DNA of 64,000 nt from Bradyrhizobium sp. LLZ17 (GTDB lineage: Bacteria > Pseudomonadota > Alphaproteobacteria > Rhizobiales > Xanthobacteraceae), in assembly GCF_041200145.1 (NCBI RefSeq), contig NZ_CP165734.1:1674001-1738000 (forward strand), written 5' to 3'. Positions 22,506-28,729 of this stretch are shown piece after piece; positions within the stretch are counted from its first letter, which is position 1; every line of letters starts with the position of its first letter. Position numbers and translations under genes: made by a program. The notes under the pieces are model-generated. The model was not told the DNA's origin. It ran no database searches and saw only the letters and a program-made list of their open reading frames with translations.

Positions 22506-23888
22506 TTACGCCGGCGTCAGCTTCGCGACTTCCGGCTTCATGTCATCCAGCACACCCGAGATCGCCGCGACCAGCTCGTCGATCTGCGTCTTGGTGACGA
22601 TCAGCGGCGGGCAGATGGCGATAGCGTCGAGCATGTTGCGCGAGATCACGCCGCGCTCCTGGAGCATCCGGCTGGCCATGCCGCCGACCGCACCCGGCGT
22701 TGCCGCTGCCGTCTTGCGCCCCTTGTCGAGCACGAGCTCGAGCGCTGCGATCATGCCGACGCCGCGGACTTCACCCACCAACGGATGGCTGGAGAGCTCC
22801 CGCAGCTTTCCCTGCATATAACCACCGAGCTCGGCGGCGTGCGCGACGAGGCCGCGCTCCTCGATGATCTTGAGATTTTCCAGCGCGATCGCCGAGCCGA
22901 CGGGATGGCCGCCCGCAGTAAAGCCGTGGCCGAGCACGCCGATCTTGTTGCTCTCGTCCGCGATCGGCTCGAACATGCGGTCGTTCAGGATGATCGCCGA
23001 CAGCGGGAAATAGCTCGAGGTGATCTGCTTGGAGACGACGATCGCATCCGGCTTGATGCCATAGGTCTCGCAGCCGAACATCTTGCCCGTGCGGCCGAAG
23101 CCGCAGATCACTTCGTCGGCGATCAGCAGGATGTCGTACTTGTTCAAGACCTTCTGGATCTTGTCCCAATAGGTGGCCGGCGGCACGATGACGCCGCCCG
23201 CCCCCATCACCGGCTCGCCGAAGAAGGCCGCGATCGTGTCCGGTCCTTCCTTCTGGATCAGCGCGTCGAGCTCCTCGGCGCGTCGCGTCGCGAACGCTTC
23301 CCCGCTCTCGCCTGGCCCACCGTCCTTGTAGAAATGCGGCGAGCCCGTATGCAGGATGTTCGGCAGCGGCAGGTCGAACGAGCGGTGGTTGTTGGGCAGG
23401 CCGGTAAGACTTGCGGATGCGATGGTGACGCCGTGATAGGCGCGCATCCGGCTGATCACCTTCTTGCGCTGCGGCTGGCCCAGCGCGTTGGAGCGGTATG
23501 CGATCAGCTTCAGAACGGTGTCGTTGGCCTCCGACCCGGAGTTGGTGAAGAACACCTTGCTCATCGGCACCGGCGCGAGCGCGACCAGCTTCTCGGCGAG
23601 ATCAATCGAGGGCCCGTGCGATTTGGCGGAGAACGTATGATAGAATGGCAGGGCCTGCATCTGCCGGTGTGCGGCCTCGACCAGCCGCTTCTCGTTGAAG
23701 CCGAGCCCGACGCTCCACAGGCCCGCCATTGCCTCGAAATAGCGCTTGCCCGACGCATCAAAGACGTAAGGCCCCTCGCCGCGCTCGATCACCAGGGGAC
23801 CGGCCTGCTGATGGGTGCGCGCGTTGGTGTACGGATGGAGCTGGTAGGCCACATCCCGGGCTTCTTGCGAATTGGGCAGCATGGACAT
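22506..23888 (-). CDS. Class III PLP aminotransferase (omega-amino acid or polyamine type)
   Basis: The 460-residue enzyme transfers amino groups between an omega-amine or beta-amino acid and pyruvate or a similar acceptor. Fold-type I motifs are FFTNSGSEANDTVLKL (residues 113-128), IADEVICGFGRTG (Asp258 holds the PLP ring) and VVSKQITSSYFPL with the Schiff-base Lys287; GFTAGGHPVGSA follows. Similar proteins act on putrescine, beta-alanine, taurine or GABA, and the sequence alone does not decide. It stands alone on the minus strand between a palindromic repeat and the accessory GNAT operon. Confidence 0.88.
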   Translation of the reverse strand: MSMLPNSQEARDVAYQLHPYTNARTHQQAGPLVIERGEGPYVFDASGKRYFEAMAGLWSVGLGFNEKRLVEAAHRQMQALPFYHTFSAKSHGPSIDLAEKLVALAPVPMSKVFFTNSGSEANDTVLKLIAYRSNALGQPQRKKVISRMRAYHGVTIASASLTGLPNNHRSFDLPLPNILHTGSPHFYKDGGPGESGEAFATRRAEELDALIQKEGPDTIAAFFGEPVMGAGGVIVPPATYWDKIQKVLNKYDILLIADEVICGFGRTGKMFGCETYGIKPDAIVVSKQITSSYFPLSAIILNDRMFEPIADESNKIGVLGHGFTAGGHPVGSAIALENLKIIEERGLVAHAAELGGYMQGKLRELSSHPLVGEVRGVGMIAALELVLDKGRKTAAATPGAVGGMASRMLQERGVISRNMLDAIAICPPLIVTKTQIDELVAAISGVLDDMKPEVAKLTPA

Positions 23889-24029: not shown

Positions 24030-24200
24030 TCAGGCCGCGCCGTCGTCATCCTCGGCGCGGGCAGCCTCAGCGGCCTCCCTCACCTCGACCAGGGCCATCG
24101 CAAGCAAATACACGGTGGCGGGCAGGCCGATGCGGCGCGCCCTCTCAGCGGCACGCGATAGCTCGCTTGCCAGTTCGTTGAGTTCGTCTCCCCGCGACAA
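24030..24200 (-). CDS. Possible 56-residue helical protein of the accessory operon
   Basis: A frame starting at TTG 24200 encodes a short Ala/Glu/Arg-rich helical product (SRGDELNELASELSRAAERARR, then LPATVYLLAMALVEV) with an acidic C-terminus (ARAEDDDGAA). It begins 8 bases after the likely stop of the isochorismatase-like gene, with GGTGGG just upstream, which suggests translational coupling. The mid-section is hydrophobic enough for a helix that packs on a partner or a membrane. No family is recognised. A longer open frame upstream exists but overlaps the previous gene and has poor codon character. Confidence 0.42.
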   Translation of the reverse strand: MSRGDELNELASELSRAAERARRIGLPATVYLLAMALVEVREAAEAARAEDDDGAA

Positions 24201-24208
24201 TGTCCCAC

Positions 24209-24795
24209 CTATCCATCCGCCGATCGCGTCCCATCGACCGCGACGGCGCCGCTGATTCTGATCAGATCGGCGCTGGATTGGATCGTAGCAAAATGCCCGA
24301 TGACATTCATCATGGATTGCTTGTAGGCGGCGGCCTCCCCGTTCCCGGCTGCCGGCACGCGACAGCGTCGCCAACCACCTCGTATCGATGGCTGCGGTGA
24401 AACCCTTCGACGGCGGTGGCCAGAATGGTTTCGTCCAGGGAAAATCCGGTCAGAACGCAGCGCAGATTGTGGATACTGGACATGTAGTCCACGAACCGCG
24501 GCGAGCTGTAGGCCGAAGGCAACGGATGCTCGAACGTCAACTCTCCCGGCCGCGGCTTCGCCTCGGCGATCCAATCGGTCAGCCTGGATGACGGATTGAA
24601 CCAGGCGGCCTGAGCGATGCGCTTGAGATGCATCACCGGCCAGAGCTTGTCGCGCCACAGCGTCAGCAACTGCTGGCAGCGCGCGGCGGTGACGTCGCCG
24701 TCGAGGATGACATGGCGACGCCCTTGGGTCAGGTATTCGACCTGGAGATCTGCACAGACCAGGATCGGCAGATCGTCATGCATGGAGACCGGCAT
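24209..24795 (-). pseudogene. Isochorismatase-fold protein without catalytic cysteine, frame broken
   Basis: Two overlapping frames make one cysteine-hydrolase-fold protein of about 195 residues. The first part begins MPVSMHDDLPILVCADLQ, giving the family's leading Asp, and reaches YEVVGDAVACRQPG; the second continues GEAAAYKQSMMNVIGHFATI, the usual last segment. They join if one G is restored in the CCC/GGG run at 24344-24346. The triad is altered: VLTGFSLDETILATA has Thr where the nucleophilic Cys is expected, and the usual Lys position reads EHPLPSAYSS. So the intact form was probably a non-hydrolytic binding protein. It lies 25 bases after the GNAT gene, in the same operon. Confidence 0.6.
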
Positions 24796-24820
24796 TGTCT
24801 TCCGCGTAGCTGCACCCGTT

Positions 24821-25441
24821 TCAGCGGTCCGCGGGCGCGAAGCCCCGCAGCGGCGATGTCACTGCCCGGCCCGCTGATGCTTCGAGCACGCCCGGCCGGT
24901 CCCAATCGCCCTCGGGACGGATGATCACGTAGGGATCGCTGTCCAGCGTGATGGCATCGGGCCCCGGTTCGATCTCCAGAAGCATTTCCGTGTAGGAGAA
25001 ATCCGAGAAGGTGATCTTGCGGTTGTGGCCGAGCGGCTTGGCGCCGAAATGGGCCCAGAAATCGACCAACCGGTCCTGGGCCTGACCGTAGATCTTGCGG
25101 AACCCCTTGCGCTTCACATAATCGACGCTCGCCTGCACCAGCTTGAACGAGATGCGCGAGCGCCGATATTGATGGCGCACCGCCAGCCGCTCGACCTTGG
25201 CGAAATCGCCGAAGAAGCGCACCCGCAGGCAGCCGGCGGGCTCATTGCCGACGAAGCCGATGAAATGCGCGGCCACCATGTCGTTGCCGTCGAACTCCTC
25301 GTCGAACGGACAGTCCTGCTCGGCAAGATAGACCGCGGAGCGAATGGCGGTGACCAGCATGAGGTCGCTGGGATCGCGCGCGAGCTTGATCGTGATGGCG
25401 CGGGAGTCGGGTTTGGCGAGAGGGATCCTAGTGCCGTGCAT
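24821..25441 (-). CDS. GNAT family acyltransferase, FeeM/LuxI-like shape
   Basis: The 206-residue product has a GNAT core: SAVYLAEQDCPFDEEFDGND with the LuxI/FeeM-like aromatic/acidic pattern, then GFVGNEPAGCLRVRFFGDFAKVERLAV (beta 4 and motif A start), and SFKLVQASVDYVKRKGFRKIYGQAQ, with no canonical Q/RxxGxG acyl-CoA loop. A C-terminal tail with SDPYVIIRPEGDWDRPGVLE follows. Such proteins acylate amino acids, amines or proteins using acyl-CoA or acyl-ACP. It overlaps the upstream GNAT-like gene by 14 bases and precedes the isochorismatase-like gene by 25. The product may be an N-acyl signal or lipid; this is inference. Confidence 0.75.
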   Translation of the reverse strand: MHGTRIPLAKPDSRAITIKLARDPSDLMLVTAIRSAVYLAEQDCPFDEEFDGNDMVAAHFIGFVGNEPAGCLRVRFFGDFAKVERLAVRHQYRRSRISFKLVQASVDYVKRKGFRKIYGQAQDRLVDFWAHFGAKPLGHNRKITFSDFSYTEMLLEIEPGPDAITLDSDPYVIIRPEGDWDRPGVLEASAGRAVTSPLRGFAPADR

Positions 25442-26045
25442 CTGTAAAACTCCTTGCTTGAATGATCCCGCCCGGCATGCGCATCGGCTGCCGATTCCAG
25501 GGCCGCTCGTAACACCAGAGGTCGGACTGAAAACTTGGAACGGGCTCGAAACCGGTCGCCTTCATGATCTCGCGCCCGGCCACGCTGGCCGGCTGCGCAT
25601 AGCAGTCCGCGTTGCGAAATCTGATCTGGCGCAGGTGAGCGGCGGCTTTGCCCAGACCGGCGATCCCCCGTCCCGTCGCCGCGATCGCCCAGATGTAGAT
25701 GGCGGAAACCCGCTCGTCGGGCGAGGCGAGATGGCAGGTCTCGGGCGCGGTCAGGCAGATGTCGTCGAGCAGCAGCGCATCGTGTCCGCGATCGCTCAGA
25801 AAAAGAAAGGCCATGCCGCCGAGCAGATCGCCCCTCCGGCTGAAGGTCAGGAGACTTTGGCGATCGAACGCGAAGTACGTCGCGAGTTCTCCCGCCCCGA
25901 TGCGCACGCCGGGCACGAGCCGGTGCGCCATATCGGAAAGCGCAGCAATTTCGGAAAATTGCGCACAACGGACGTCCACCTCGGGGCTCAGCGGCAACGC
26001 GTCGAAATCGTGCCTCGCGGCAAACGAGCCCCTTTCCATCGCCAT
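25428..26045 (-). CDS. Divergent GNAT-like acyltransferase
   Basis: The 205-residue product has a GNAT-like core: GDLLGGMAFLFLSDRGHDALLLDD resembles the central strands, YIWAIAATGRGIAGLGKAAAHL holds a Gly-rich GRGIAGLG turn like the acyl-CoA loop, and YAQPASVAGREIMKATGFEPV is the typical final helix-strand. The first 30 residues are less conserved. The gene is first in an operon with a second GNAT, a cysteine-hydrolase-fold protein and a tiny protein, and faces a LysR gene. Substrate is unknown. Pairing of two GNATs that overlap by 14 bases suggests they act as a complex or in sequence. Confidence 0.7.
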   Translation of the reverse strand: MAMERGSFAARHDFDALPLSPEVDVRCAQFSEIAALSDMAHRLVPGVRIGAGELATYFAFDRQSLLTFSRRGDLLGGMAFLFLSDRGHDALLLDDICLTAPETCHLASPDERVSAIYIWAIAATGRGIAGLGKAAAHLRQIRFRNADCYAQPASVAGREIMKATGFEPVPSFQSDLWCYERPWNRQPMRMPGGIIQARSFTDARH

Positions 26046-26115
26046 ATCGCCCCTCTATCGTTCGAGGCTTCGTGCCCCGCTATGACGATCAGCTTAGCGA
26101 CTGGGGATTTTGCGT

Positions 26116-26156
26116 ATGCAGCAAGTATTGCACCGGGGTGCTGCATTGATGCAGCA
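26116..26156. promoter_or_regulatory. Three-part ATGCAGCA repeat at the LysR gene start
   Basis: ATGCAGCA occurs at 26116-26123, its inverse TGCTGCAT at 26139-26146, and a third copy in direct orientation at 26149-26156. The first pair is an inverted repeat with a 15-base spacer, as LysR-type proteins prefer, and the third overlaps the possible downstream start codon. This may be an autoregulatory site of the LysR gene. Confidence 0.4.
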
Positions 26157-27156
26157 CAGTGAAGAAGCCCTGGACGCGTCCTGGGACGATTTGAAGCTGT
26201 TCTTGGCGTGCGCAAAATACAAAAGCTTCCGCAACGCTGCCGAAGAGCTCGGGCAGACCAGCACGACCCTGATGCGCCGGATTGACCGGCTCGAAGAGAG
26301 CATCGGCTGCAAGCTGTTTCTGCGCGACCAGAGCGGGCTCACCCTCAGCGACGAAGGCACCGCCATGATTGCCGACGTCGGGCATATGGAACGTCACGCC
26401 TTCAACGTCTTCCGGCGCGCCTCACGTACCTCGAACGATGCATCCGGCACCGTGCGGATCGCGGTGACGGAAGGCCCCGGCAATTTCTGGATCCTGCCGC
26501 GGCTGATCGATTTCCAGAAAACCTACCGCAAGATCGCGGTCGATCTGCGCTGCGCCATGGAGCAGGCCGACGTCGCGCGGCTGGAGTCGGACATCGCGAT
26601 CCAGCTCGAACCACCGACCAATCCAGATCTGATCGTGGCCAAGCTCGGCCGGCTGCACATCTATCCCTTCGTCTCCAGGGACTACGAGAAGCTCTACGGC
26701 GTGCCCGCCACTCTCGCCGACCTCAAGAACCACCGCATCGTCAAGCAGAATGCGCCGCAGGTCGACGACAGCGCCTACGCCCGCGTCCTCGGATTGAAGT
26801 CGCTGGAAGGCATCGTCGGGATCAAGACCAACTCTTCCGTCGGTGTGCTCTATGCGGTGGAGCGCGGCGCCGGCATCGGTTTCCTGCCGACGGTGTCGAT
26901 CGCGCTCGGCGCACCGCTCGTTGCCGTCGATCTCAGCGTCAGCCATCACGCCGATCTCTGGCTGACCTATCACAGCGAGTTCCGCACCTCCGAGCGCCAC
27001 AAGATCGTCGTCGACTGGCTGAAGAAGATTTTCGATCCCAAGATCTACCCATGCTTCCGCGACGAATTCATTCATCCGAACGCCTTGGTTCCGATGATGA
27101 CGGCCGCGCGCGAGGGTTTTGGATTGACGGGCTATGTTGCGGCGATGCCGATTTAG
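26116..27156 (+). CDS. LysR family transcriptional regulator
   Basis: The product has 346 residues from ATG at 26116, or 335 from ATG at 26149. The HTH begins SWDDLKLFLACAKYKSFRNAAEELGQTSTTLMRRIDRLEESIG and the effector domain covers about 100-310. Both starts have a G-rich ribosome site. The gene is divergent from the two-GNAT operon with 70-100 bases between, so it is the likely regulator of that operon. The effector is probably a product or substrate of the acyltransferases. The tail beyond residue 310 is longer than usual for LysR. Confidence 0.88.
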   Translation: MQQVLHRGAALMQHSEEALDASWDDLKLFLACAKYKSFRNAAEELGQTSTTLMRRIDRLEESIGCKLFLRDQSGLTLSDEGTAMIADVGHMERHAFNVFRRASRTSNDASGTVRIAVTEGPGNFWILPRLIDFQKTYRKIAVDLRCAMEQADVARLESDIAIQLEPPTNPDLIVAKLGRLHIYPFVSRDYEKLYGVPATLADLKNHRIVKQNAPQVDDSAYARVLGLKSLEGIVGIKTNSSVGVLYAVERGAGIGFLPTVSIALGAPLVAVDLSVSHHADLWLTYHSEFRTSERHKIVVDWLKKIFDPKIYPCFRDEFIHPNALVPMMTAAREGFGLTGYVAAMPI

Positions 27157-27165
27157 GCGGCAGCC

Positions 27166-28352
27166 TCACCATTTGTATTCGAAACCGACCGTGCCCTGGT
27201 GCGACGTGAGCTCGTTGCGGAATTTGCCGTCGTAATTGACGTAGAGCCGCGCGGTGTTGGTCAGGCTGAGCGAGGCGGAGGCGCCGGCATCCATACCGTA
27301 ACGGCTTTCGCCGATGCCGGGCACGACGATGTTCTGGGTCCCGAGACTGACCTGGACCGAGCCGAGGTTCTGATCGAAATTGTCGACGAACTTGCCGTAG
27401 GCGGACAGATCGAGGATCTTCCGGTCGAAGATGAAGTAGCGCCCGATCTCAGCGCCGATCATGACGCGCGCGCGTGAAATCGCGGTCGAACCGACGTTGA
27501 GCGGATCAAGCCCCCCGCCTCCTGGAACGCCGCGCCGGTGGCGCGGACATATTCGAGCGCGCCCTTGGGCACGACCCGCATCTGATCCTTGGTCCAGTAA
27601 TAGCTGATCTCGGTCAGCGCGCCATCGACCGCGGCGCGATAGCCCGCAGTGGCAAGGCCAAAGCCGGTGTCGCGGCTGGAATGGACCTTGCCGAAACCGT
27701 GCACCACCGCGAAGGCCCAGGTCCACGGCCCTTTATCAAGCGAGCCGTTGAATCCGATCTGGGTCATGTCCAGCGTCGCCGATTGCAACGCGAGCGGCAC
27801 GTCAATGTCGGTATGACTCTGATCCACGGAGAAACCGAGATTGACGCCAGGCGCAACCCGCGCGCCGAAGCCGGCGACGCCGCCAAATGTCTTGCGCTTG
27901 TCGCCGACGAAATCGCCCTGCGCATCGGTCCGGACCGCGACGCCGTAGCCCTCGAACCAGGTGCGGAAGCGCGGATCCTCCGTGCCCTCGGACGCCCCGC
28001 CGCCGCCGGGATTGCTGCGGAACGCCCGATTGAAACCGCCGGACGCCTGGTTTCCCAGCCGCTCCAGGAAGCCTGAACCGAGATTGAGCGTGCTGTTTCC
28101 GGCCGACTGGTCGTAATTGATCGACGTCGGGATCGGGATCGGGATCGGGCTCGGAGACGGCGTGGGGGTCGGTGTCGGAGAAGGTGTCGGAGTAGGCGTC
28201 GGCGTCGGTGTCGGGCTCTGCGCCAAAGCGGGCGTCGCCGCCGAGATCATGACGACGAGCACAAAGGTCGTGGCGATCGCCATCACAATGCGGCGAAGGC
28301 GATCCAGCCCAATCGTCTGCAATGTCCCGGAGGGCTGCAATGGGCAGCTCAT
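27166..28352 (-). pseudogene. Autotransporter-type outer-membrane beta-barrel protein, frameshifted
   Basis: Two frames combine to one protein of about 395 residues. It starts MSCPLQPSGTLQTIGLDRLRR with a long signal (cleavage after PALAQ), has a Pro-Thr/Ser repeat (residues 46-75) and then a beta-domain with alternating strands to the terminal FEYKW, whose final aromatic residue is typical of outer-membrane barrels recognised by BamA. The break is in a C6/G6 run at 27511-27516: adding one G joins FQEAGG to LDPLNVGST. There is no long passenger domain, so this may be a short autotransporter-like barrel. It ends 10 bases after the LysR stop, convergent. Confidence 0.7.
28128..28218. repeat. 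Hexanucleotide-type repeat coding for Pro-Thr/Ser tract
   Basis: Imperfect tandem hexamers of the form GG(A/C/T)(T/G)TC or variants encode the (Thr/Ser/Ile)-Pro linker of the barrel protein. Copy number could change by slippage without changing frame, altering linker length. Confidence 0.6.
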
Positions 28353-28729
28353 AATGACCAATCCTGAAGCGAATGACTGCGCGCAAAAATGCAACACGAA
28401 CGGCACGCACCTGCGGTGATTTGTGCTGAACTGCCACGGAGGGTCAACCGGTTGGCGGGCTGTGGCCGAGGCGATTACCCTCGATTGTGGTTCCGCGGCC
28501 ACAGCTCGCAAATTGCAGAAGGCCGTCCCCGAACCGGTCTTGAAATTCGCGCGCGGCTTGCTAACGCGCGATTTTCATGTTGCAATATCGGACACAATCG
28601 GAATTGGCGCTCGGCTGTGCGTTTCGCGACCTTGAGACTCAAGACTCGAACAGACTACCGGAAGCCCGTTTGTGGCGTGGCACGCGAAAAGCGGCCGCGT
28701 CTTTTTTGTATCTAGCGGAGGAGACTACG
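28353..28729. other. Divergent promoter region of barrel gene and cspA
   Basis: This 377-base gap shows no convincing gene. A short hairpin, CGCGCG (28549-28554) and CGCGCG (28565-28570), is followed by ATTTT and may end a short transcript or fold in the cspA leader. Cold-shock genes often have long structured leaders, which fits the distance. Confidence 0.45.

Follow-up and report, generated by a model that had tools for sequence, protein, structure and literature searches.

A conserved LysR-GNAT operon of Bradyrhizobium and other Alphaproteobacteria that may be built like a signal-synthase operon with a CinS-like output

Gene content and conservation of the locus

The window, a stretch of 64,000 nucleotides from the genome of Bradyrhizobium sp. 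LLZ17, contains a compact group of four genes on the minus strand and a divergent regulator gene. The features are:

26116..27156, plus strand: divergent LysR-type regulator (Pfam LysR_substrate and HTH_1 above cut-off)
26046..26145, no strand: candidate control region between the genes and at the lysR start (inverted repeats; alignment of 21 sequences)
25428..26045, minus strand: GNAT1, GNAT-fold protein, fused to GNAT2 in other lineages (no Pfam match; structure model)
24821..25441, minus strand: GNAT2, GNAT acyltransferase and most conserved protein of the operon (Pfam; model of a fused relative)
24212..24795, minus strand: ICM, isochorismatase-fold gene, broken in the window (PF00857, 51.9 bits against a cut-off of 27)
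24030..24200, minus strand: small protein of 56 amino acids with a TTG start (codon differences; profile match to a small family behind LuxI genes)

The order of divergent LysR, GNAT1, GNAT2, ICM, and tiny protein is conserved. All 80 named contigs, a selected close set comprising the best 80 of 445, keep the order LysR-GNAT1-GNAT2-ICM, and in these best 80 of 445 an ICM covered without interruption and a match to the small ORF are each found in 79. The same order of LysR, GNAT1, GNAT2, and ICM is found in 22 Bradyrhizobium loci (L021-L042), with a damaged ICM in L032 and a matched small ORF in 19 of the 22. Across 36 genomes of the same genus, the own genome included, LysR (scored at E <= 1e-60) and GNAT1 are either both present (24 genomes) or both absent (12). 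The set of genes proposed in the first-pass annotation is thus real and its order conserved, and in Bradyrhizobium the genes are syntenic and not scattered. Farther away, among 46 alphaproteobacterial loci, 41 have a divergent LysR, 26 have two separate GNATs and 14 a fused one; ICM occurs in 21 and is absent from 25, including 12 of the 14 loci with fused GNATs. As judged by comparison of these loci, GNAT1 and GNAT2 are inherited as a unit. A neighbour search in the distant loci revealed no further widely common gene beyond those of the module.

Some observations concern single neighbours or loci. A class III aminotransferase gene (window 22506-23888) lies downstream of the operon and is present in all 80 named contigs (best 80 of 445). 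It is several kilobases off in some loci (L027, L032-L034) and is not a common neighbour in the distant loci. In L178, L179, and L180 the small gene is followed by a gene that we labelled SAM-dependent methyltransferase-like from reading its sequence, and an ORF of L183 belongs to the same cluster. The module is also present in L046, a contig titled Frankia sp. RB7, where GNAT2 is 97% identical to that of the window. This title looks wrong, the sequence being Bradyrhizobium-like.

The longest LysR ORF starts at a TTG at 26110. Inverted repeats (26117-26123/26139-26145 and 26130-26141) overlap the first LysR codons, and the region 26046..26145 is nearly invariant among the 21 aligned sequences. 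The variability of third codon positions is 0.062 in LysR codons 1-12 versus 0.146 in codons 13-120. As a sign of a control element this low value is only suggestive, because the segment at the LysR start ranks 10th of 110 for low third-codon variability. A fixed-word search recovered the candidate operator motif in few of the distant loci.

The acyltransferase-fold and isochorismatase-fold proteins

That both GNAT genes encode an acyltransferase fold, as had been noted from the window alone, is borne out by Pfam and the model of a fused relative for GNAT2, and by structure prediction for GNAT1. GNAT1 does not match any Pfam family, and it was modelled alone because the match list of the fused relative covers only the GNAT2 part. 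Profile comparison of GNAT1 with GNAT2 gave no match.

Several known families were considered and rejected. Neither GNAT belongs to the LuxI-type AHL synthases: similarity to LuxI was not detectable with hhalign (probability at most 0.5%), and the Pfam search of both GNATs gave no Autoind_synth match. The N-acyl amino acid synthase FeeM does not fit either, as GNAT2 reaches 14.2 bits against a FeeM profile cut-off of 27 and is matched better by ordinary acetyltransferases. The score against the nitrogen-starvation GNAT MSMEG_0567/Sll0786 (TIGR04045) is 23 bits, far from the curated cut-off of 68.45. Antibiotic resistance by acetylation and hydrolysis found weak sub-threshold matches only, and ICM does not have the catalytic triad.

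In the window, the open frame of ICM stops at 24310. Compared with 79 aligned relatives, the gene lacks a single base near 24337-24348 (78 events) and another near 24228-24236 (69 events). An autotransporter-like gene next to the operon (window 27166-28511, minus strand) is apparently also in two frames. The breaks in ICM thus suggest either small assembly errors, which are plausible because this neighbour seems to be split as well, or decay in the region.

ICM resembles the isochorismatase-fold hydrolases (PF00857) in its domain and in its Asp. The other two positions of their Asp-Lys-Cys triad, which we take to be those given by the nicotinamidase motif and by alignment with solved relatives, are different: all 121 aligned proteins (the reference and the best 120 of 1540 matches) keep the Asp and have His at the Lys and Thr at the Cys position. 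The missing catalytic Cys had already been pointed out. It is not restored in any of these 121 close relatives, and the Lys is missing too. Classical hydrolase chemistry appears unlikely for the Bradyrhizobium ICM.

The small protein, LuxI tails, and PraR-like genes

The small ORF starts with TTG in 75 and with GTG in two of the 77 usable loci (of the best 80 of 445). In these 77 loci, single-base codon differences from the window are synonymous in 953 and non-synonymous in 341 cases; the loci are related and the counts are therefore not independent. Because the synonymous differences are far above the 29% expected without selection, the ORF is evidently selected as a protein. A small ORF overlaps the preceding gene by four bases in 12 of the 46 module loci versus 2 of 30 LuxI loci.

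In a leave-one-lineage-out test of a profile built from such tail proteins, the Bradyrhizobium protein scored 21.8 bits, and none of 831 background ORFs and none of 300 shuffles scored as high. For nine of the 13 core lineages at most one of the 831 background ORFs was as high. The weaker lineages are L203 (7 of 831), f20 (26), L045 (33), and f11 (58). The tails of L167, L174, and L198 did not fit the profile, and for L192 11 of the 831 background ORFs scored as high. Two results count against the interpretation that we prefer below. The f11 and f20 loci have small ORFs with the four-base overlap that do not match the profile, and under strict leave-out with wider candidates a clear family tail remained in only 8 of the 46 module loci, with L186 (25 of 4294) as a weak ninth. 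On these profile scores, the case for a tail family is strong in Bradyrhizobium and in several further lineages, but not in every lineage.

The same profile leads to LuxI genes. The protein behind the LuxI gene of L241, on which the profile was not trained, scored 22.4 bits with none of the 831 background ORFs as high. This tail was first picked by eye, and the other LuxI tails were picked via the profile or via each other. A scan of 297 genomes with a tail alignment of 11 rows, L241 being one of them, revealed matches directly behind LuxI that are not rows of the model in G307 (8e-12; same genus as L241), G315 (1.4e-5), G058 (2.3e-5), G177 (0.017), and G049 (0.02). Of the 297 genomes, 88 have LuxI genes and at least 115 have weak tail matches at E <= 0.05. 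Among the matches listed, tails of the small family behind LuxI are the exception in this sample.

The tail of G315 (L260) overlaps LuxI by four bases and has a match in a named record, R. leguminosarum bv. viciae BIHB 1148, where genes for LuxR, an acyl-homoserine-lactone synthase, and a hypothetical protein of 67 amino acids are found, the last overlapping the synthase gene by four bases. This is the cinR-cinI-cinS arrangement, and we refer to the 67-amino-acid protein as being in CinS position, a label of ours because the BIHB 1148 record does not use the name CinS. With the profile of GNAT-module tails it scored 29.9 bits, and 26.3 bits without the Bradyrhizobium rows (0 of 5000 null windows). 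All seven LuxI tails (13.7 to 32.1 bits) scored above all 5000 windows of real proteins. With the reverse profile, built from LuxI tails only, the window protein scored 21.5 bits and none of 5000 null windows was as high. Against the favoured reading, only six of the 12 GNAT tails reached 0 of 5000 in this direction, the others having 2, 11, 11, 41, 101, and 354 null windows as high. This two-way test is partly circular because most LuxI tails were picked by the profile or by likeness to tails already picked, and its independent part is the location of the tails behind LuxI. By profile comparison, then, the tiny protein belongs with the small proteins behind LuxI genes.

In the excerpts of the cited papers, CinS is described as binding the XRE repressor PraR and relieving its repression (PMC4149787; PMC5977203), and MmaP, a protein of 59 amino acids encoded behind mmaI, also binds PraR (PMC10790750). 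PraR-like XRE genes are found in the flanks of 14 of the 46 module loci (nine genera; gaps of 258 to 3049 bases) and of two of the three plasmid loci. By chance 0.30 of the 46 loci would be expected to have such a gene nearby, and nine genera would have P about 4e-11, given 46 PraR-like genes in the 89.9 Mb of 18 genomes; 14 of these genomes had been chosen for having one nearby. Most seeds of the XRE profile were themselves module neighbours, a choice that favours the detection of such neighbours. As far as such a comparison goes, PraR-like XRE genes are enriched near the module. The genome of the window counts against the preferred interpretation in this respect: it has two PraR-like genes, at G000:C1:5037840 and 2612379, and neither is near the window. 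One is 58% identical and lies beside trmB, a label read from the sequence; the other, 48% identical, has a LysR paralogue as its neighbour. Elsewhere in this genome, in L207 (5280-6730; G000:C1:2611348-2612717), a paralogue with 40% identity to the LysR of the window directly adjoins a PraR-like XRE gene.

A signal-synthase-like operon and its alternatives

We consider the chances about even that the locus is an acyltransferase operon under LysR control that has the layout of a signal-synthase operon and a CinS-like output. LysR would sense the substrate or the product and switch the operon on. GNAT2, with GNAT1 as its partner domain, would acylate a small amine, and ICM may be an accessory protein that binds or modifies the compound without classical Cys chemistry. 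The small protein would bind a PraR-like XRE regulator and affect the genes that this regulator controls, in the way described for CinS and MmaP in the excerpts cited above. Such antagonism is suggested by the family relationship and by the proximity of the genes. A function of this product as a signal between cells is conjecture. The first-pass idea of a set that makes and senses an acylated compound is thus supported in part, by the likeness of the tail to the LuxI tails and the clustering of PraR-like genes. The role of ICM as key binding partner is not supported in the form proposed, as ICM is absent from so many module loci, in particular those with fused GNATs, and the window copy is broken.

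Proteins of the LuxI type likewise adopt the GNAT fold. The cinR-cinI-cinS/PraR system of Rhizobium leguminosarum resembles the operon in that an acyltransferase-fold gene has behind it a gene for a small protein that matches the same profile, and in the PraR-like XRE genes. However, it has LuxR where LysR is found here, and the present operon has two GNATs without detectable LuxI similarity instead of CinI, and an additional ICM. CinS and MmaP are encoded directly behind a LuxI-family synthase, whereas the small gene of the window, as in Bradyrhizobium generally, follows GNAT1-GNAT2-ICM. The mmaI-mmaP/PraR system of Methylobacterium fujisawaense is similar in having a PraR binder of 59 amino acids behind the synthase compared with 56 here, and differs in being of LuxI/LuxR type; we draw this likeness from the excerpted description of MmaP (PMC10790750). 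We propose that the gene set works in the manner of cinI-cinS without belonging to the LuxI systems.

As the main alternative, the acyltransferase could serve metabolism or detoxification and have the same regulatory tail. In such an operon GNAT2 would acylate a nutrient or toxic amine sensed by LysR, and the small protein would only provide a link to PraR-type control, without any signal. The nearest solved relatives of GNAT2 in sequence and fold are indeed ordinary GNATs such as SACOL1063, YjcF, and ElaA, and pathway metabolites are common effectors of LysR regulators. However, no catabolic or transport gene is a widely common neighbour in the distant loci, and the tail family is also found behind LuxI genes, so that we regard this explanation as possible and clearly less probable than the signal-synthase-like operon.

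It is rather unlikely, and would be compatible with the other readings, that ICM is an active hydrolase degrading the acylated product via altered residues. In 26 alphaproteobacterial ICMs (nine of them from Bradyrhizobium) the Asp is kept in 24, and the position right after the Cys site, itself occupied by T (12), S (5), A (5), N (2), V (1), or Y (1), is a Cys in 13. The solved relatives 4h17 and 8cib have Ser aligned at the Cys position. On the other hand, the Lys position is His in 11, Arg in 11, Lys in only two, and another residue in two of the 26, and 25 of the 46 loci do not have ICM at all. Still less probable is that the small protein resembles LuxI tails only because short two-helix patterns are common, and that it does something else, such as serving as a subunit of the GNAT complex. 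The proteins are very short with few conserved columns, the reverse profile does not recover several module tails, and a clear family tail is missing from most of the 46 loci, but shuffles, reversed sequences, and the 5000 windows of real proteins all score below the window and CinS-position proteins, untrained genome matches sit directly behind LuxI, and PraR-like genes cluster near the module.

Extending the signal-synthase-like reading, the operon could represent a second type of acyl-compound signalling that is widespread in Alphaproteobacteria. In it, a GNAT synthase, paired or fused, would take the place of LuxI and LysR that of LuxR, while the CinS-PraR output would be kept; this we put forward tentatively. 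A published description of the LysR-GNAT1-GNAT2-ICM-tiny-protein set was not found in the literature searched. In the excerpts of the respective papers, CinS and MmaP appear solely as proteins encoded behind LuxI genes (PMC4149787, PMC5977203, PMC10790750, PMC10688885). One of these papers reports that a BLAST search of Caulobacter crescentus did not yield a CinS-like protein, and raises the idea of anti-repressors yet to be discovered (PMC10688885). A divergent tail family that is recoverable by profile and ends LysR-controlled GNAT operons makes this question directly testable. A conserved, unnamed alphaproteobacterial operon would gain a first testable function. Since its tiny protein resembles one by which rhizobia signal from cell to cell, this gene set of a soil bacterium may represent a signalling or sensing system that has been overlooked.

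The genome of the window also contains LuxI-type genes. A possible tail protein is found behind a LuxR-LuxI pair (L284, about 2036-2221, around G000:C1:5326595), which is weak in the genome scan (E 0.54) and reached 13.7 bits in the profile test with none of the 5000 null windows as high. Another LuxI match (L283, G000:C1:3666001-3666523) is split in two pieces. Elsewhere, matches of the tail family recur behind TfuA-like genes and beside SARP-type-regulator-like genes (L265, L267, L269, L270/L281; L258, L259, L272), both labels being taken from reading the sequences.
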